This document shows, piece by piece, positions 5,709-25,096 of a stretch of DNA of 51,568 nt. How positions within the stretch are numbered: position 1 is the first letter of the stretch; the number at the start of each line of letters is the position of its first letter. The notes below the pieces were generated by a model. It was not told the DNA's origin. It saw only the letters and a program-made list of their open reading frames with translations, and did not search any database. The stretch is taken from the NCBI GenBank assembly GCA_947632025.1, contig CANRNN010000013.1, positions 1 to 51,568 on the forward strand, given 5' to 3'. The DNA comes from an uncultured Clostridia bacterium (GTDB lineage: Bacteria > Bacillota > Clostridia > Oscillospirales > Ruminococcaceae). The position numbers and the translations under genes were made by a program.

Positions 5709-5821
5709 AAACAAAAAACGAGGGATATTCTCCGTTATCGTTTGTTTGTTTAGTTGTCTCCTTTCTTTTGTTCTACACATAATATAATTTTATTTTGAGC
5801 CTTTCGGGGCTCACTTTTTTT
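5709..5821 (+). ncRNA. Candidate small RNA, unidentified
   Basis: A consensus promoter is followed about 110 bases later by an intrinsic terminator, with no ORF and no ribosome site between. The 5' part can form a long hairpin: the A-rich arm at about 5709-5722 (AAACAAAAAACGA) pairs, with a bulge, with TCGTTTGTTTGTTT at about 5738-5751, and an inner GAG/CTC extends it. A pyrimidine-rich single-stranded stretch follows. I do not recognise an Rfam class. It could also be a leader whose read-through feeds the small gene at 5937. Confidence 0.55.
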
Positions 5822-5835
5822 GACTTTTTCAGTCT
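5796..5835 (+). terminator. Tandem terminators after candidate small RNA
   Basis: TGAGCC (5796-5801) pairs with GGCTCA (5808-5813) and a seven-T run follows. Immediately after, GACT/AGTC (5822-5834) forms a second small hairpin followed by TTTTTT. Confidence 0.75.
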
Positions 5836-5869
5836 TTTTTGCAATTTCGATGAAAATTTCAAAATACTA

Positions 5870-5898
5870 TGGAAAATTATTTCGAGATGTGTTATAAT
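5870..5898 (+). promoter_or_regulatory. Extended -10 promoter of the small basic gene
   Basis: TGTTATAAT (5890-5898) is a perfect extended -10. The -35 position (TGGAAA, 5870-5875) is a weak match, as is usual for extended -10 promoters. Confidence 0.65.
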
Positions 5899-5936
5899 AG
5901 GTATATGTACTTTACATTTTTTAAGAGGTGACAGCT

Positions 5937-6131
5937 ATGGCAAAAAAGAAAAAAAGCAGCACGGGTATTCCGGGACTTTCGTTCAGTTGGAAGAGAGCTT
6001 TGGGAATCACTGCCGCAAAGCAGAAATTCGCGAGGAAAACGGGAATACCTACTACTAAGGCGGGACTTGAACGTAAAATAGGCAGAGCCGTACTCGACCT
6101 GCTCGACCCGAACGACGACAAGAAAAAATAA
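5937..6131 (+). CDS. Small basic protein of unknown function
   Basis: The 64-aa protein starts MAKKKKSSTGIPG and is very basic. Its core, FSWKRALGITAAKQKFARKTGIPTT followed by AGLERKIGRAV, resembles a family of short hypothetical proteins I recall from Actinobacteria and Firmicutes (SWKRA-G-AK-RK-GIP pattern); none has a known role that I can cite. The ATG at 5937 is preferred over an upstream GTG because AAGAGG lies eight bases before it. It has its own extended -10 promoter and is followed by yfmF after 16 bases. The charge suggests nucleic-acid binding, which is inference only. Confidence 0.7.
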   Translation: MAKKKKSSTGIPGLSFSWKRALGITAAKQKFARKTGIPTTKAGLERKIGRAVLDLLDPNDDKKK

Positions 6132-6147
6132 TAAAGGACTGATAATC

Positions 6148-7416
6148 ATTTTTCAGCGTAAGAAAATAGGAAACGGGATCTTTTTCAGCAAGATAACCGA
6201 CGAGCGCTTCCTTGAAAACCTTGTCGGAATAAATTTCTACCTCAACGGCGAGGACGGCACGGATAACGGCTGTTACGCGGCAGCGGCAGGCGTTCTGGCA
6301 GAATGTTGTGAGAAATATCCGACAAATCTGGAACTTTGCAAGCGCCGTGAGGAACTTTACGGCGCGGGGCTTTTCTGCGCTCCTGGAAGCATAATGTGGG
6401 ACAACAGGCTGATTTCACTCAAAGCGGGAACTATAGGGAACGGTTTCGCACTCGACAATGAAAATCTCGAAGAGGAGATTTGTGAACTTATACGGGAATG
6501 TCTGCTGCGCCCCAAAATCGTCGGAGAGGGATTCGACGGAAAAGCCCTGTCGCTTGTTAAGGCGGAGTTAATCGACGCTATCGACGGTCTTGTCAACAAC
6601 AAATCCGCGTGGGCTGCGGTAAAATGCCGCGAAGCCGCATTCACGGGCGAGGCTATGTCGAAATCATCAGTGGGTACTCACGAGGAAGTAGAGCGCGTTA
6701 CTCCCGAATCGGCATACAACGCATACAAAAAATTCCTCTCAGAATCCCAGATCGAGATAATAGCGGCGGGACAAAGCGATTTTTCGGTTTCCGAAAAAAT
6801 ACTGACAGAGATGTTCTCCGAAATAAAAAGGAGTGACAAGCCTACCGAACTAATGTCAGCTCCGTCAAGGCTCAAACCCGAACCGCTTATCGTAAGGGAC
6901 AAGCTTCCTATGGAGCAGGCGATCGTCAGAATGGTCTACAAATCACCCGATTACGAGGACAGATTCGCGCTGGGTGCGTTGAATGTCATTTTCGGAATGA
7001 TGACTACTTCACGGCTTTTTATGAACGTTCGGGAAAAACAGTCGCTGTGCTATTACTGCGCAAGCAGCTCGCTCAAAACTAAACGGACGCTTACCGTTTA
7101 TTCGGGGGTAGAACCCGCAAATATTGAACGGGTGCGCTGCGCTATCGAACACGAGCTTGACAATATCCGCGAAAACGGCGTTACAGACGAGGAAATAAAC
7201 GCTATGCTGCTGGAATACGAAAGTCAGAACGCACAGATATACGACAGTCCCGCGGCGCTTATGGCAAATTATCAAGGGCAGCTGACGGACAAGGAACGCT
7301 TCCTTACGCCGGAGGATTTTCTGGAAAAGCTGTCAGAAGTGACCTCCGACAGAATACGCGAAATGGCACGCCACCTCACGCTGGACACTGTTTACACGCT
7401 TTCGGGGGAGGATTGA
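6148..7416 (+). CDS. yfmF: YfmF-like M16-family protein (non-AUG start)
   Basis: From the proposed start the protein has about 422 residues, the usual YfmF length. It is an M16-peptidase-fold protein lacking the HxxEH zinc motif, the inactive partner of YfmH, which follows after one base. In EF-P-modifying Firmicutes this pair is annotated as EF-P 5-aminopentanol modification-associated. The frame has no ATG, GTG or TTG until ATG 6394, which would cut about 82 conserved-looking residues (GNGIFFSKITDERF, GIPG-like start region). AAAGGA at 6133-6138 is followed by ATC (6145) and ATT (6148), so an AUU/AUC start is most likely. Confidence 0.8.
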   Translation: MFQRKKIGNGIFFSKITDERFLENLVGINFYLNGEDGTDNGCYAAAAGVLAECCEKYPTNLELCKRREELYGAGLFCAPGSIMWDNRLISLKAGTIGNGFALDNENLEEEICELIRECLLRPKIVGEGFDGKALSLVKAELIDAIDGLVNNKSAWAAVKCREAAFTGEAMSKSSVGTHEEVERVTPESAYNAYKKFLSESQIEIIAAGQSDFSVSEKILTEMFSEIKRSDKPTELMSAPSRLKPEPLIVRDKLPMEQAIVRMVYKSPDYEDRFALGALNVIFGMMTTSRLFMNVREKQSLCYYCASSSLKTKRTLTVYSGVEPANIERVRCAIEHELDNIRENGVTDEEINAMLLEYESQNAQIYDSPAALMANYQGQLTDKERFLTPEDFLEKLSEVTSDRIREMARHLTLDTVYTLSGED

Positions 7417-11279: not shown

Positions 11280-12695
11280 ATGAACTGGAATACTCTTTTA
11301 TCGGACAGGCGTGAACGCGCTGCCGCTCCCACAAATTCAAATGACGTCAGAAACGAATTCCGCAAGGATTATCACAGAATAATCGGCAGCGCTTCTTTCA
11401 GGAGACTTCAGGATAAGGCTCAGGTATATCCGCTTACACGCGGCGACTTTGTCCGAACAAGGCTTACGCACTCGCTGGAGGTAAGCTCGTTTGCGGGGTC
11501 ACTTGCGGATACGATTTTCCGCCGTCTTACTGCGGAAAATATCGGGGGCGTTTCTGATACCGTTCGGGAAAACTGCCGTGATATCCTCGAATGTGCGGGG
11601 CTTGTTCATGATATTGGAAATCCTCCATTCGGTCATTTCGGAGAATTCGCTATACGACAATGGTTCAAGGAAAATTTTTCAAGGCTAAGTTTTTCGGGAG
11701 TTACTCTCGACAAACTTCTCAGCGAACAAATGAAGGCGGATTTTCTGAATTTTGAAGGAAACGCTCAGGCGCTGCGGGTACTTACAAGACTGCACTGTCT
11801 TATGGACAACAAAACAGGAATGAATCTTACTTTCGCTCTTCTGAACACAATAGTGAAATATCCCGTAAGCTCCCTTGAGATCGACAAGGAAAGCGGAGAT
11901 ATACGCACCAAAAAAATGGGTTTCTTTATGTCGGAGCATGAGCTGTTCAACGATATCGTCCAAACAACGGGAGCCGTGGGATATCGCTATCCGCTGACAT
12001 TTATTCTCGAAAGCGCCGACGATATTGCCTATAAAACAGCCGATATCGAGGACGCGGTAATTAAAGGACTTGTATCATATGATATTCTGATAAGGGAACT
12101 GCAAAGCGAAAAATATCTTTTGCAATGTAAGGACTACAACGAGCGCGAGGCGCTTATTCAGGCGTATAAGGAGCTGATAAAGTCACACAATTCCGCCGAA
12201 ACGCTAGGTATGGAAAATCCTGACAGCTCTGCCGTTTCACGGTGGATAATAAAGCTTCAGAACAAAATGCTGTACGCAGCAGCGGACGCTTTCTGCGAGA
12301 ATTATGACAGCATAATGGAAGGTTCGTTCAAAGAAGAACTTCTTTCGGCAAGCCGCGTGAGAGTGCTTTCAGACGCGCTTTCCGATATTGCTTACCGATA
12401 CGCGTTCCGCTCTGAGATGATAGTAAAGAACGAGATATCGGAAAGTGCTGTGATGAACGGTCTGCTTGAGAAAATAGTTTGGGCTGCGCTTAGGTTTGAT
12501 ACTGAGGAACAGCAGATCATCGACCGCGACCTTACAGAAATCCTTTCGGACAACTATCGTGAGATCTGCCGTAAAAGCTGCCGTGGAAAATCCACTGCCG
12601 AACAGGCGTATCACCGGCTGCAATTCGCGACTGACTGTATTGCCGGCATGACGGACAGCTACGCGGTTGATTTCTTTCACACACTCAACGGGTGA
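11280..12695 (+). CDS. dgt: dGTPase-like HD-domain dNTP triphosphohydrolase
   Basis: The 471-aa protein belongs to the dGTPase family. RRLQDKAQVYPLTRGDFVRTRLTHS (H64) is followed by GLVHDIGNPPFGHFGE, with metal-binding H110-D111, and ESADDIAYKTADIEDA carries the distal Asp. Family enzymes cleave dNTPs to nucleoside plus triphosphate and influence dNTP pools and phage resistance. Length is normal. ACGGAG precedes the ATG. The response regulator gene starts three bases after its stop, so the two are probably co-transcribed. Confidence 0.92.
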   Translation: MNWNTLLSDRRERAAAPTNSNDVRNEFRKDYHRIIGSASFRRLQDKAQVYPLTRGDFVRTRLTHSLEVSSFAGSLADTIFRRLTAENIGGVSDTVRENCRDILECAGLVHDIGNPPFGHFGEFAIRQWFKENFSRLSFSGVTLDKLLSEQMKADFLNFEGNAQALRVLTRLHCLMDNKTGMNLTFALLNTIVKYPVSSLEIDKESGDIRTKKMGFFMSEHELFNDIVQTTGAVGYRYPLTFILESADDIAYKTADIEDAVIKGLVSYDILIRELQSEKYLLQCKDYNEREALIQAYKELIKSHNSAETLGMENPDSSAVSRWIIKLQNKMLYAAADAFCENYDSIMEGSFKEELLSASRVRVLSDALSDIAYRYAFRSEMIVKNEISESAVMNGLLEKIVWAALRFDTEEQQIIDRDLTEILSDNYREICRKSCRGKSTAEQAYHRLQFATDCIAGMTDSYAVDFFHTLNG

Positions 12696-19642: not shown

Positions 19643-22600
19643 TCAGAACATTTCGATATTGCCTATATCATCTTTTTTCTCAGGGGAGAGCGACTCGGTC
19701 GCTGGACGACGGGGCTTAACGCCCTCAGGAGGCGGGTATCTGGGTGTCATAGCAGGCTTACCCTGAGCAGCGGCAGGCTTTGCCTCAACTTTCGGTTCTT
19801 CCTTCGGGGTTTCGGCGGGAGTTTCGGGGAAAGCAGGCTCACTCTGCTGAGAGTGGTCGACGTTTCTCACGTTGTCCTCATACCATTTTGCCGCCATCAT
19901 CGGGCTTAAAATAATATCAAGCACCTCATGAGGACCTTCCGTCACGTTTTCGGGGATAACGTTTCCGCCGTTGGGGTCGGGCTCGCATATATCAAAGCTG
20001 ACCTGTCTGCGGAACTTTATCCTGCAATACAAAAACTCAGGCGGGATATGCTCTATCTGAGCTATTTCCTCAAGCCATAGGAACGGCGTCATACCGCCGA
20101 TGCTGATGTCGTCGATAAGCCACCCCGCTGCCTGATCCGCGTCGTTATGGCAAAGGTACAGCGCGAAGCGGAATTTCTGCTCCTTCTCGCCGTTCATAAG
20201 TCCTATGGTAAAATTCTTGACGATAAAGCTGTTAAGGACGCTCTTTTCGTATCCGCAGCACGGGCAGACGCCGCCATATCCGAAGAGCTTCGCGTTTACG
20301 TCGCGTGCAAAATAATTCCTGTAAACTTTAGGCTGACGCTTTTCAAATATAGAAATTCTTCTGATTTCATTTGTGAGGTAGTCGAATTCCTTTTTGGAAA
20401 TCGTCGGAACGGGCTTGTAGTAATACGGCAGCTGATCAAGCAGCATAATGTTCGGTTCTTCCGTTCCCGAATAAAGACCGCGCAGAAGATTCTTGTTTAC
20501 TCCCGTAAGGATAAATTCCACGAATCCCGCATACTGCGGCTTGGTCATATTGTCGCGGAGAATGACGAGTTTCACGCTCTTGGACATATCTTCCGGAGAG
20601 ATAGGGGCGGACATATCCACTATTTTCATCAATTTCTCGTCAGCGGAAAGCAGCGCTATCTTGTCAAGACCGAGGTCACAGACGTAAATTTTCGCCAAAG
20701 CCGCCTCAACAGTATCAGCGTTTCTGCATTCCGGCAAAACCGACAGGATATCCTGCGTATCGAAAGAGAATCTTCCCTGACTGTGCGGGAAATCGAACAC
20801 TCGGTTGTTTATGAGCCCGCTCTCGATAATTGCGTAAACATCTCCTACGATGTCGAGCAGCTCGGCATTTGAGATATTAGGCGGTATCATAAACTGCTTT
20901 CCGTAAACGGAGAAGCGGTAGCGCTTATTGATATCCAGTGCGAGAGTTACCTCTCCGCCTTGACTCTTTATCTCTTTCAGGAACTGAATGGTATCCTTAC
21001 CGTTGGTAAAGGAGTTTACCATCAGCGTTACGACCTGATTGAATATCTGGTGATTCTCGAAGCGCATTTCGTGTGCCGCGAGTGTATCGTATGCCTTTTT
21101 GAGGTTACTGATATTTATTTTGGATATCTCAAACTGAATGGAAGCCGTTCCGGAAGTAATGACAAACTGGAAATACTTCATTGAGATGCGGTAATTTTCA
21201 CCGAACATCTCGTCGATAACAGAGAACGCGTCTGCAAGAGCGTTTTCGTCGGCTACCGAGCCGTTTACGATACATTCGTTAAGCTTCAGCGATATAATGC
21301 TCTTGAAGTATGCGGAAAGCTCATAGTCCTTTATCTTCTTTCCATACGATTCCATATTGAACCGCAAGCCTTCAAGGAAGAACGAATAAAGGAACTCCTC
21401 GCCGCCCTCGTCCGTACCGGGCTCCTGCCAATTGTACTTTGCGACGAGGACGTGGTTGTCGTCCTTGCCGTACCAGTCGTTCATCTGGTCAATATCTTCG
21501 TAGAGCGCTTTTGCCGCTGCGCCGTCCTCATGCTCCTCCTTTGTTACGGAACGCTCGGTGAAAAAACCGTGGCTGCGAAGCTCTCTGAACGCTATCGGGT
21601 TTTCGATCTGCGGGAACTGTACCGAAACGCTGTTTCCGAACTTCTCACGCAGACCTTTCGCGATATTGCTTGTATTTACATAATTGTAAAAGAACTCAAA
21701 AACAAACTGTCTGGGTCTTAACATATAAAGCTCAGGCTTATCCTGACGAGGCATAAGCTCCAGCACGAACATCTTGCGGTAATCGTCGGCTACAGCCATA
21801 ATGCCCTGCTCTATCTTCGCGGAGCATTCCTCTAAGGAATCGTACTTTATTCCAGAACGGTTATTTGTTATATACTTATTCGGAACGGATACGAAGAACG
21901 CCGACAGCTGCTCGTCGACAAACTCCTTGGAATTTGCGCGGACAAAGCCCGTGAGCTCGAATGTCGAAAAGTAATTGTAGTTGGACATCAGCACCTTTGC
22001 CGCGTCGCGCTTCGTCCCCGAAATAGCGTAAGGAATAAGGTAAGTGAAGCCGTCGTGTTCGGCAGTTATAAAGTCCGCGACGGATTTTCCGTTCTCTGAA
22101 AAGCGGACTTTCATAATATCATGTTCGTCTTTGCGGTACTGTTGTATTTTGTAGACGACCTCGCGGTTTCCGAAATTTAACACAGCGAGGTTGATCGTGC
22201 GTTCCATACACTCGGTGTCGTCGTTTGCTGTGAGGTTCTTTTTACGAACAAACGCGAAGCACAGATCCACCATATTGATATAAACGCCCTTTTTCGAGGT
22301 GAGCGTAATGAGGTTTTCGTGGAGTGCGGACTGTTCGTTTTCGGGGAGTGCGAATACTATTTCCGTATGCGGGAAATGCTCATCTGTAAGCTGAAGCTCG
22401 CGCACCTTCAACGTTCCGTCGTCATTTACGACACGCAGCGAATAATTGTTCGAGCGCATCTTGAACCAGTCAACGTTTGCGAAAACGCTCTTCGCGCCCA
22501 GACCGAAACGTCCCTCACGTCTTTTATCCCCGTCGTTTCTTCCGACGGAAAGATAATAGAACACCTGTTCCAGACGGAATCCTGTTTCGTTATAAGTGAG

Positions 22601-22921
22601 TTTTACCTGTCCCTCGTCGAGGAACTCTATCATTACCTTAATGTCGGGAGTTTCATAATCGCAGCCGAACACGTTCTGCAAAAGCTCGCGGATAATGGAC
22701 TCACGGGGATAATCCTTCGCGATACCCGCCATATTTACCGCGCCTCTGCTCGCGTAGATGTTATTGAAATAGTCCTTGAACGGCGCGCTGTCGATCTCTC
22801 CCGAATCGAGCCTGCGCTGAATATCCTCGACGACGTTTTTCATTCCCTCTTTGTCGCCGGCGGTATTTCGTTCAAAAAAGTCGCCCAGCAGCTTTTCTAC
22901 CGTTTCATAGCTTCCAGCCAT
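19643..22921 (-). CDS. Hsp90/MutL-type (GHKL) ATPase with C-terminal Cys cluster
   Basis: The 1092-aa protein is of an unrecognised family. Residues about 70-150 form a Bergerat ATP site: N-box RELLQN (E79, N83) and lid GRFGLGAK (137-144). Motif II reads NETGF at 111-115, with Asn where Hsp90/MutL have the adenine-contacting Asp. A long middle region of about 700 residues has no motif I know. CPCCG at 886-890 and a CH pair at 924-925 may form a zinc site. From about 1025 the tail is Pro/Glu/Lys-rich and probably disordered. It lies 76 bases after the helicase-like gene and is surely in one unit with it. A CCGTGC/GCACGG hairpin sits in that gap. Codon style matches its neighbours, so recent transfer is not evident. 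Confidence 0.75.
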   Translation of the reverse strand: MAGSYETVEKLLGDFFERNTAGDKEGMKNVVEDIQRRLDSGEIDSAPFKDYFNNIYASRGAVNMAGIAKDYPRESIIRELLQNVFGCDYETPDIKVMIEFLDEGQVKLTYNETGFRLEQVFYYLSVGRNDGDKRREGRFGLGAKSVFANVDWFKMRSNNYSLRVVNDDGTLKVRELQLTDEHFPHTEIVFALPENEQSALHENLITLTSKKGVYINMVDLCFAFVRKKNLTANDDTECMERTINLAVLNFGNREVVYKIQQYRKDEHDIMKVRFSENGKSVADFITAEHDGFTYLIPYAISGTKRDAAKVLMSNYNYFSTFELTGFVRANSKEFVDEQLSAFFVSVPNKYITNNRSGIKYDSLEECSAKIEQGIMAVADDYRKMFVLELMPRQDKPELYMLRPRQFVFEFFYNYVNTSNIAKGLREKFGNSVSVQFPQIENPIAFRELRSHGFFTERSVTKEEHEDGAAAKALYEDIDQMNDWYGKDDNHVLVAKYNWQEPGTDEGGEEFLYSFFLEGLRFNMESYGKKIKDYELSAYFKSIISLKLNECIVNGSVADENALADAFSVIDEMFGENYRISMKYFQFVITSGTASIQFEISKINISNLKKAYDTLAAHEMRFENHQIFNQVVTLMVNSFTNGKDTIQFLKEIKSQGGEVTLALDINKRYRFSVYGKQFMIPPNISNAELLDIVGDVYAIIESGLINNRVFDFPHSQGRFSFDTQDILSVLPECRNADTVEAALAKIYVCDLGLDKIALLSADEKLMKIVDMSAPISPEDMSKSVKLVILRDNMTKPQYAGFVEFILTGVNKNLLRGLYSGTEEPNIMLLDQLPYYYKPVPTISKKEFDYLTNEIRRISIFEKRQPKVYRNYFARDVNAKLFGYGGVCPCCGYEKSVLNSFIVKNFTIGLMNGEKEQKFRFALYLCHNDADQAAGWLIDDISIGGMTPFLWLEEIAQIEHIPPEFLYCRIKFRRQVSFDICEPDPNGGNVIPENVTEGPHEVLDIILSPMMAAKWYEDNVRNVDHSQQSEPAFPETPAETPKEEPKVEAKPAAAQGKPAMTPRYPPPEGVKPRRPATESLSPEKKDDIGNIEMF

Positions 22922-22997
22922 TACTCTGCCCCATTTCTCCGTGCTTGTATGACCTTACGCGCCGCACGGTTGACGCGTTTTTGGTTTTGAGATCCAA

Positions 22998-24950
22998 TTA
23001 AAAACCGTCATTATAAATTTTTATATAATCCTTGAAAGAGCGGTCGGAATCCTGTTCCTTGGCTCTGTATTTCCATATTCCGTAAAGAGCGGGATATTGC
23101 AGGCAGTCGTTCAGACCGCTTATCTCCTGCTTTATTTTCAGGTGGAAATTGCCGACGTTCTTGTGAAGCTCGTCGATCTCTTGCTTCGCGCTGTTAAGTC
23201 CGGGGATCATTTCCGAAGCGAATGGCTCGTTTGAGAACGAGTCGCTTGCGAAAGATGCAGCCATTTCGTCCCTGCGCGGAGCTTTTTCAAGCTTTCCGTC
23301 ATTTGTCACGCAAAGTCCGCCGAGAGAGTTTACAGCGTTATTTATATCGGATTCCGAAGCTCCGTCCGAAAGTCCGAAGAGCTTATATATTTTCTTCAGC
23401 TGTTCCTCCGCAAACTCCGAAAGCTCCTTGCCCGAACCGATTTTTTCCGATCCGGCGACAGGATACTCGCACTTTACTTTCTTGATAAGGTCAAGGCAGT
23501 TATCTACCTGCTTTGCGAAGTCGCGGATATATTTGAGGTCGGCGACAAGTTCGTTCAGGCACTGACCCTTTTCTTTCACATCGAGCAAGATATTTCTGGC
23601 GGGCAGCGCTCCGCAGAAGCCCGCATCAAGCTGCGAATAGAGTGCCTTATTGAGCATACAAGAATCGAAAACTCCGTTCTTATCACGGAATATCACGAAT
23701 TTTCTCTGAGCTTCTCTCGCCGTGCCGTGTCGGGTCATTCTTCTTTCGAGAAGAACGGGCGAAAGCGGAAGCTCGTAATTGACTATGCAGGTAATATCCT
23801 CAAAACCCTCGCCTACGGTTCCGAGGTCGTCGAAGCCTATAAGCACCTTCGGGTGGACTTCGCTTGTTTCCACTGCAAGGTTTCCGGTTATATCCTCGTC
23901 CTTGAAAAGACCGCCGCGTGCGTAATGAAGCTCCGGTCCGTAAAGGCAACCGAGCGCCTTGTGCAGATATTCGGAGGTGTTCTTATCGCAGCAGTATATC
24001 ATAAGTCTGCCCGAAGAATCCGCCAGAACGTCGTCGCAAAGTTTAAGCAGAGCGTCCAGCTTCTTGTCGAACGTTCTCAGATCCTCAACATCTGAGCGGG
24101 TAAAATAGCTTTTTGAGTAGATTTTCTTTTCCTTTTCAAACTTATCGCAGTCGAACTGCTCGAAAACGTTGCCGCCGAATTTATAGGTAGGAAGTCCCGT
24201 GCGCAGATCTACACGGCGGCGCAGTCCTGTTAAAGCGTCCTCCGCGAACTCGTAATCAACAAAAACAACATCTCTCGTGAATCCGTCGGTGTAGAGCGGC
24301 GGATTGAAGTAGCGCATTACCGGATTTGACTCTGAAAGTTTGGAAGCTTCCTCATTAAACTCGATCTCATCGGCTTTTGCGGAAAGGTCGCCGCTGTCCA
24401 ACACAGACTTTACGAGGGACGCCAGTGCTTTCTTATCGTCCTCGGTTTTCGCGGGGAACGGTGAGTTTATTAGCAGTCTTTCGCTGTTCCAGATTATAGC
24501 ATTTTCGTATTTTGAGTATTCAGGAACACCTGTATTCTGTTCCTCGTCGATTATTATTAGATTCCACAGAAATCTCTTGGAAATTTTCTTTTTTAGAATA
24601 TTCTCTCCGACGAGAGCGTCTTTGGAGATGATGTAAAGACTTGCGCCGAACTCGCTGAAAAACAGCAAAGAATTCGACCCACCGGAGATAGTTTTGAAAT
24701 CCGCGCCTATTGTCGTCACCATTACCTTATACCAGCTGTACATTTCGGCGGACTCGGTTATGATAAGTATATTCGGATTTTCCTGCTCCGCGAGTACGTC
24801 ATAGACACACAGTCCCGCTTTGGTATATTTCTCCGAGCCGAACTCGCTGCAATTAACGGCAAACCCGAACCTGCGAAGTTTTTCGGGCGCGGAAAGATTC
24901 GCGGCGGAAAGATTCAATCCCACCAGCGGCATATACTTCAAGTTACTCAA
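22998..24950 (-). CDS. RapA/SNF2-like helicase-fold protein, degenerate Walker A
   Basis: The 650-aa protein aligns by eye with RapA/SNF2 enzymes. EFGSEKYTKAGL at 36-47 corresponds to E-G-LGKT-EAGL but reads GSEKYT, losing the second Gly and the Thr while keeping Lys. Motif Ia is NILIITES (60-67), motif II DEEQ (135-138), motif III LLINSP. Lobe 2 has GTVGEGFED (377-385) and LERRMTRHGTAR (401-412), the motif VI arginines. The last about 170 residues are helical and unknown. The start is TTG 24950: GGAGGT lies seven bases before it. It has its own promoter and is followed by the GHKL ATPase, a likely partner. Confidence 0.75.
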   Translation of the reverse strand: MSNLKYMPLVGLNLSAANLSAPEKLRRFGFAVNCSEFGSEKYTKAGLCVYDVLAEQENPNILIITESAEMYSWYKVMVTTIGADFKTISGGSNSLLFFSEFGASLYIISKDALVGENILKKKISKRFLWNLIIIDEEQNTGVPEYSKYENAIIWNSERLLINSPFPAKTEDDKKALASLVKSVLDSGDLSAKADEIEFNEEASKLSESNPVMRYFNPPLYTDGFTRDVVFVDYEFAEDALTGLRRRVDLRTGLPTYKFGGNVFEQFDCDKFEKEKKIYSKSYFTRSDVEDLRTFDKKLDALLKLCDDVLADSSGRLMIYCCDKNTSEYLHKALGCLYGPELHYARGGLFKDEDITGNLAVETSEVHPKVLIGFDDLGTVGEGFEDITCIVNYELPLSPVLLERRMTRHGTAREAQRKFVIFRDKNGVFDSCMLNKALYSQLDAGFCGALPARNILLDVKEKGQCLNELVADLKYIRDFAKQVDNCLDLIKKVKCEYPVAGSEKIGSGKELSEFAEEQLKKIYKLFGLSDGASESDINNAVNSLGGLCVTNDGKLEKAPRRDEMAASFASDSFSNEPFASEMIPGLNSAKQEIDELHKNVGNFHLKIKQEISGLNDCLQYPALYGIWKYRAKEQDSDRSFKDYIKIYNDGF

Positions 24951-25067
24951 TTATCGCACCTCCGAACATATTTCAAGCAAACAGGCAGACAAAAATTCCG
25001 CGCCGAAACATTCATTTTCCGACGCATTTATGAATCTTGTCCAAACATACAAATACCCTGTAACTTA

Positions 25068-25096
25068 ATTATACACCAAATATTTAATTATTACAA
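25068..25096 (-). promoter_or_regulatory. Promoter of the helicase/ATPase pair
   Basis: On the minus strand TTGTAA (25091-25096), a 17-base spacer and TATAAT (25068-25073) occur about 120 bases before the TTG start. Confidence 0.65.

Follow-up and report, generated by a model that had tools for sequence, protein, structure and literature searches.

The 51,568-nucleotide stretch analysed here (hereafter the window; contig CANRNN010000013.1 of assembly GCA_947632025.1, from an uncultured Clostridia bacterium of the Ruminococcaceae) carries on its minus strand two adjacent genes, HEL first and GHKL second, with 76 bases between them. There is reason to think that the two form a domesticated helicase–GHKL module that now serves a vertically inherited, near-core function, a reading to which we give a probability of about one half. 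The genes are as follows:

22998–24950, minus strand: HEL, a 650-residue protein of the SWI2/SNF2 fold (RapA-like) and a probable pseudo-helicase, with a TTG start
19643–22921, minus strand: GHKL, a 1092-residue GHKL ATPase of the sacsin/Hsp90 type, with an S5-like region, a C-terminal Cys cluster and a variable tail rich in Pro, Glu and Ala

A preliminary description of the window, made from its letters alone, had proposed a two-gene unit of a GHKL ATPase and a RapA/SNF2-like protein. The unit is real and conserved, and both fold calls were right: HEL and GHKL are adjacent in all 52 loci that hold both, in differing neighbourhoods of three genera, namely that of the window (g1) and two further carrier genera (g28 and g238). 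The spacing is 56–171 bases apart from one split-frame case, and in the eight g28 loci the genes are separated by 0–1 base or overlap by 1 base. It is the pair that is conserved and not its place. Among the 35 g1 loci in the context count, some of them cut by contig ends, rnfC follows GHKL in 16 and an HD gene precedes HEL in 19; given these proportions, and since neither stands beside the g28 copies, both the HD gene and rnf were rejected as parts of the unit. Two g1 copies that lack rnf (L075 and L077) have a rhamnulokinase gene nearby; one of them also has agmatine-pathway genes close by, the other an ECF sigma factor. In six of the eight g28 loci (L068–L073) and in the g238 locus (L101), the pair precedes, in the same direction, a cluster of mraZ, rsmH, ftsL, pbp, murE and mraY (ftsL being assigned from position and size alone). 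This link to an mraZ-led division and cell-wall (dcw) cluster is not present in the other two g28 loci or in the g1 loci seen. No methylase or nuclease gene adjoins the pair, the immediate neighbours being rnfC and the HD gene in the window, mraZ and rsmH in L101, and metabolic or sigma-factor genes where these could be named (L075, L077).

HEL has the SNF2 fold with high confidence, both SNF2-type RecA-like lobes being present in comparisons of its structure model. These comparisons, like those of GHKL below, are alignments against Foldseek's top chains, in lists filled with SNF2 and GHKL domains and with other folds possible. The helicase motifs that would be expected of the fold are degraded:

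24816–24857, minus strand: degenerate motif I of HEL, residues 32–45, NCSEFGSEKYTKAG, in which the Walker lysine is kept and GxGK[ST] is lost
24534–24557, minus strand: motif II of HEL, IIIDEEQN, residues 132–139
23727–23747, minus strand: remnant of motif VI of HEL, ERRMTRH, residues 402–408

None of 46 aligned HEL proteins (37 from g1, 8 from g28 and 1 from g238) contains GxGK[ST], whether at the motif I position or elsewhere in the sequence. The g28 proteins are further decayed, with the lysine kept in six of eight and lost in the other two, and with neither DE nor DD at motif II in any of the eight. The combination of Walker A, DExx box and motif VI found in active SWI2/SNF2 enzymes is lacking in HEL, which on these motifs is probably a helicase fold that seems to have lost its ATPase engine; the 'SNF2-type translocase' of the preliminary description was not borne out in any of the three genera. 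A Pfam scan of HEL returned noise only, and a search of PDB sequences with a HEL profile gave 55 matches, those listed being DEAD-box helicases and RapA, through the C lobe. PADLOC gave weak C-lobe matches to the defence helicases HmaA, DrmD and DrmA (E 4.8e-6 to 0.0037), and the weak matches of HEL or its distant relatives include, besides HmaA and DrmD, one to TmtA, a name absent from the papers listed in the literature search.

The partner, by contrast with this motif loss, retains most of the features of its superfamily:

22673–22687, minus strand: N-box of GHKL, residues 79–83 (E79..Q82 N83)
22481–22519, minus strand: G2 box of GHKL, residues 135–147, REGRFGLGAKSVF
21857–21859, minus strand: Arg355 of GHKL, candidate basic finger of an S5 domain, a role proposed by analogy with the available text of PMC2292703
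20024–20266, minus strand: Cys cluster of GHKL (C886, C889, C924, C966), a probable zinc site with putative metal binding

The N-box pattern E..QN is kept in 40 of 40 GHKL rows that reach it (two further rows are truncated), and the G2 box, the S5 arginine and the CxxC are each kept in 42 of 42; the Cys at 966 is absent from 4 of 31 g1 rows and 1 of 8 g28 rows. The predicted model is weak, with a predicted local distance difference test score (pLDDT) of 64.7 and a predicted template-modelling score (pTM) of 0.42. Sacsin and Hsp90 are among its best fold matches, TopoVI-B, GyrB and MutL match equally well, and the matches to TopoVI-B, MutL and Hsp90 cover approximately residues 57–385. A Pfam scan of GHKL found no domain, hence neither DnaJ nor HEPN was seen; against the NCBIfam model NF047352 (sacsin N-terminal domain) the protein scored 22.4 bits, short of the curated 50, and a PDB sequence search with a GHKL profile gave 0 matches. 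Neither protein reaches a curated Pfam or NCBIfam cut-off and the PADLOC matches are weak, in keeping with the preliminary description, which recognised neither as a named family. The last ∼75 residues of GHKL (19643–19870) form the Pro/Glu/Ala-rich tail, which is very variable in length and is missing in seven rows of alignment A2 that end near residue 1020. In L044 (10001–13342) and L012 the GHKL frame lies in three tblastn pieces, an assembly error or a decaying copy, with the HEL frame open; in L053 (10001–10711) and L008 (3519–4229) the GHKL frame ends after 237 codons, the tblastn match reaching residue 247 near the contig end.

The pair is near-invariant in its genus: HEL is present in 35 of 37 genomes of g1, the two misses being assemblies that are 69% and 77% complete. 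An order-wide search recovered GHKL in 10 of 295 genomes (2 g1 and 8 g28); the misses from the same family, which head the list of misses, include no g28 genome, and both genes occur in all eight g28 genomes sampled from the order. Of 20 matches in the order-wide HEL search, 10 were short hits to the C lobe of other helicases, which were left out of the carrier count. A family search found GHKL in 11 of 297 genomes, ten at full or near-full length (5 g1, 4 g28, 1 g238) and one, G565, as a distant partial match, the list of misses being partial; a phylum search found it in 1 of 398, the window's own genome. The plasmid collection gave no match to the window GHKL, and the viral contigs held no relative of the queries A4, A6, A8, L102 and L104. 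The phage collection gave a single match to the window GHKL, MT835670.1, and none to the GHKL proteins of L102 and L104. MT835670.1 was rejected as a phage copy, as it is bacterial DNA: around the pair, 11 open reading frames are colinear with the one-contig genome G144 and 97.9–100% identical to it. The record (L100, 1–22331) is named 'Bacteriophage sp.', is marked UNVERIFIED and is actually bacterial chromosome.

Within g1 the pair is inherited vertically. Across the 13 g1 loci that hold HEL, GHKL, rnfC and rnfD, the distance matrices of the four genes correlate at r 0.95–0.98, a level reached by 0 of 999 permutations. Purifying selection acts on both genes, the ratio of nonsynonymous to synonymous substitution rates (dN/dS) being well below 1. 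Beyond the genus, a tree of a single gene, AlaS, was built from 21 rows (20 of 21 genomes and the window; G565 was left out, with no full AlaS match). All eight sampled carriers fall inside one 10-row clade (support 100/99), and none of the 11 rows outside it carries the pair. The carrier label requires 3 changes on this tree, for which one gain and two losses suffice, against a mean of 6.7 when labels are shuffled (1 of 500 shuffles as low). One gain followed by vertical descent with losses is the simplest history of the pair, not the sole reading. Among the findings that the preliminary description said would undo its idea of an undescribed system was that the genes are invariant core genes whose role is known; half of this applies, the pair being near-core in its clade with no known role attached to it.

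Two distant relatives retain what HEL has lost. In L102 (3910–10243; metagenome-assembled genome G565, of the window's family), an intact SNF2/DEAH helicase frame overlaps a frame for a 1174-residue sacsin-type GHKL protein that passes the Pfam model SACS (35 bits against a cut-off of 32.8); such a pair occurs in one of four genomes of that genus. In L104, the Lysinibacillus capsici plasmid pFN9B (NZ_CP106864.1), an SNF2 gene is followed after 5 bases by a gene for a 1081-residue GHKL protein. Before that pair are PD-(D/E)XK and UvrD-type helicase (GajB-like, 2.5e-38) genes, which stand in a row with it at 1–10075 of L104 (L104 covering NZ_CP106864.1, 30307–42196), and after it an AbrB-like gene, an integrase gene and an Eco57I-type methylase gene, the whole being a candidate defence locus. 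The motifs are VLDEVGTGKT and DECH in L102 and VFDEVGTGKS and DEAH in L104. The two are themselves divergent (30% identity for the helicase, 26% for GHKL) and share 16% with the window helicase and 17–19% with the window GHKL. A plasmid search with the L102 GHKL gave one match, L104, and with that of L104 only itself. The HEL profile gives E values of 1.2e-16 with both L102 and L104, 4.4e-15 with L104 alone and 5.3e-9 with an unrelated SNF2 control, and a P-x-R-N element after the helicase core is found in 45 of 48 proteins, including both distant ones, and is absent from the control. Common descent of HEL–GHKL with the intact pairs is likely on these resemblances, if unproved. Further intact pairs were sought across the class, where 1 of 291 genomes matched, the window's own; a search at E 0.01 gave 6 of 336, comprising the own genome, G103 (g28), a 142-residue frame (G1161) and three others. 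These three were rejected as intact pairs: two consist of giant frames of the sacsin type, beside which no helicase was seen by eye, and the third is on a 6.3-kb contig in which no helicase frame was seen by eye.

Around the pair, the window is of housekeeping character, and those of its genes that were scanned showed no defence cluster. One further feature lies upstream of HEL:

25068–25096, minus strand: promoter-like site, a consensus match only

Downstream of GHKL is an rnf cluster, with rnfC and rnfD above their NCBIfam cut-offs, and upstream of HEL are the divergent HD protein gene and then fabV and mreB. Farther out are alaS, relA/spoT, recJ, purB, holA, a GGDEF gene, a dGTPase gene, obgE, folD, lgt, yfmH and a yebC-type gene. 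The dGTPase (11280–12695) passes TIGR01353 and scores 192.6 bits with an 'anti-phage dGTPase' model, under its cut-off of 400. In L054, fabV (5720–6865) is on the opposite strand relative to the other loci that hold it.

If the pair is a domesticated module, the ancestor of one clade of the family would have gained an SNF2 helicase and a sacsin-type GHKL protein together, as a pair like those that occur patchily or on a plasmid elsewhere; the helicase would then have lost its ATPase motifs with its fold retained, and the pair would have become a vertically inherited near-core function. In MutL, Hsp90 and topoisomerase VI-B, ATP binding closes an N-terminal dimer clamp. GHKL may likewise be the remaining motor, an ATP-gated dimer clamp by analogy with MORC and paraMORC proteins, in which ATP binding would close the clamp and hydrolysis, with Arg355 as the S5-domain finger, would reset the complex. 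The pseudo-SNF2 HEL would serve as its fixed partner, possibly binding DNA, or a protein complex on DNA, but not translocating, and for its RapA-like fold RNA polymerase would be the natural candidate target. A fuller version, offered tentatively and at odds somewhat short of even, is that a mobile helicase–GHKL conflict module was captured as a core chromosomal machine of a clade of gut Clostridia, in which the GHKL clamp acts through the pseudo-SNF2 scaffold in nucleoid, transcription or cell-cycle control, a role beyond any known system.

Several observations weigh against domestication as just set out. The Asp that is usual in the G1 box has a functional role in GHKL ATPases; the box of GHKL, YNExGF, lacks it, and the distant proteins have YPDRGF and YDDPGF. 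Since this box is atypical, ATP binding by GHKL is likely, not certain. The similarity of GHKL to L102 and L104 is significant in only ∼90 columns of the ATPase domain, and with E values of 9.7e-7 and 8.8e-6, compared with 4.6e-4 when an unrelated protein of the sacsin type is matched, the margin is smaller than for HEL; because the similarity is so confined, the case for the whole pair having one origin comes mostly from gene order and the Cys pattern. HEL also evolves faster (mean distance 0.34 against 0.23 for GHKL). On the AlaS tree, G331 (g150) and G067 (g26) sit inside the carrier clade without the pair, so carriers are not strictly one clade, and none (0%) of 200 bootstrap trees needs only 1 change. 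Finally, g1 HEL proteins keep the Walker lysine in 37 of 37 cases and DE (33) or DD (4) at motif II, and nucleotide binding by them is for that reason possible. Together with the motif VI remnant and the high-confidence fold, this retention speaks for a rival reading in which HEL has stayed active as an SNF2-type translocase and its P-loop is simply unusual. That is quite improbable given the absence of GxGK[ST] throughout the survey and the loss of the lysine in two g28 proteins and of motif II in all eight, with the same partner retained.

The preliminary description had also raised defence, and the suggestion divides between near and distant copies. A fixed anti-phage or anti-plasmid system, in which the pseudo-SNF2 protein senses foreign DNA and GHKL acts as the switch, might be kept by constant phage pressure; the plasmid relative adjoins nuclease, integrase and methylase genes, the weak PADLOC matches to HmaA, DrmD and TmtA point the same way, and helicase–GHKL pairs are known in restriction systems (Iyer et al. 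2008; PMC2292703, in the part available). At that distance, among relatives with intact helicases in a patchy or plasmid setting, the suggestion keeps part of its force. For the window copy it is unlikely: the patchy distribution or mobile context expected of an anti-phage system is not found in a pair that is near-invariant in its genus, tracks vertical inheritance within one AlaS clade, has housekeeping neighbours with no nuclease or methylase gene adjoining, and gave no plasmid or viral-contig copy. Alternatively, GHKL could be a sacsin/Hsp90-like chaperone whose clients are envelope or cell-division proteins, the SNF2-fold protein serving as adaptor and DNA playing no part. Sacsin and Hsp90 rank among the best fold matches and the mraZ-led cluster follows the pair directly in most g28 loci and in g238; however, TopoVI-B, GyrB and MutL match as well, the dcw link is missing in two g28 loci and in all g1 loci seen, and selection that has preserved an SNF2 fold points to DNA or a polymerase, all of which make a chaperone improbable. 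That two unrelated genes stand side by side by chance in one genus has nothing in its favour except the pair's lack of known function, and is contradicted by their being kept together in three genera, different neighbourhoods and two distant relatives; the chance of it is negligible.

If the domestication reading is right, the stages of a path from conflict to housekeeping may be visible here, from intact patchy or plasmid-borne pairs, through a fixed pair with a degraded P-loop, to the further decayed g28 helicase. The locus bears on how helicase–GHKL modules make that move, and a core role, if confirmed, would make it a bacterial case of domestication, with a pseudo-SNF2 protein under purifying selection as the partner of a GHKL clamp.

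RapA (HepA), an active ATPase that is not known to have a GHKL partner, shares 14% identity with HEL. Helicases of restriction-modification, Hma and DISARM systems need Walker A and motif II, and in the 46 HEL proteins GxGK[ST] was found in none. HEL resembles HmaA, DrmD and DrmA in its SNF2/superfamily 2 C lobe, as the weak PADLOC matches indicate, and differs from them in lacking Walker A and, going by the Hma composition in the available parts of PMC8565338 and PMC12839542, in having no adjoining methylase or DUF499-type ATPase partner. Unlike sacsin and Hsp90, the window GHKL has an SNF2-fold gene partner and a C-terminal Cys cluster, with no DnaJ or HEPN seen. L102 and L104 resemble the window pair in gene order, SNF2 fold, N-box and G2 box, a CxxC near the C-terminus and the P-x-R-N element, and differ from it in their intact helicase motifs and their patchy or plasmid-borne setting. 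No description of the HEL–GHKL pair was found in the literature searched, including the available parts of PMC3710099, PMC2292703, PMC8565338 and PMC12839542, a coverage from which subscription papers are mostly absent.

The nearest comparison is with MORC and paraMORC systems, in which, according to the available text of Iyer et al. (2008; PMC2292703), GHKL proteins pair with superfamily II (SFII) helicases in restriction-modification systems and are proposed to drive DNA looping with them; the same paper proposes that eukaryotic MORC proteins arose from prokaryotic GHKL ATPases acting with SFII helicases in restriction systems. As in those systems, where SWI2/SNF2 forms one class of the SFII helicases, a GHKL ATPase with an S5 domain is encoded beside such a helicase, and the GHKL motifs are kept. 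A GHKL domain and an S5 domain with a basic residue, by which MORC proteins are recognized, are both found in the window protein (N-box, G2 box and Arg355, with an atypical G1 box and a weak model), and a regular expression for the MORC-specific motif GhXhhpXXRhl matched 0 of 8 GHKL proteins. The window pair is unlike the MORC and paraMORC systems, as described in that text, in its degenerate helicase, in having no adjoining methylase or nuclease, and in its vertical rather than laterally mobile inheritance within g1. Helicase–GHKL modules as such were already known; what is new here is one turned vertically inherited and near-core, with a pseudo-helicase. Were the capture reading true, the helicase would have been kept on as a dead partner, and the case would parallel, in bacteria, the origin that has been proposed for eukaryotic MORC proteins.

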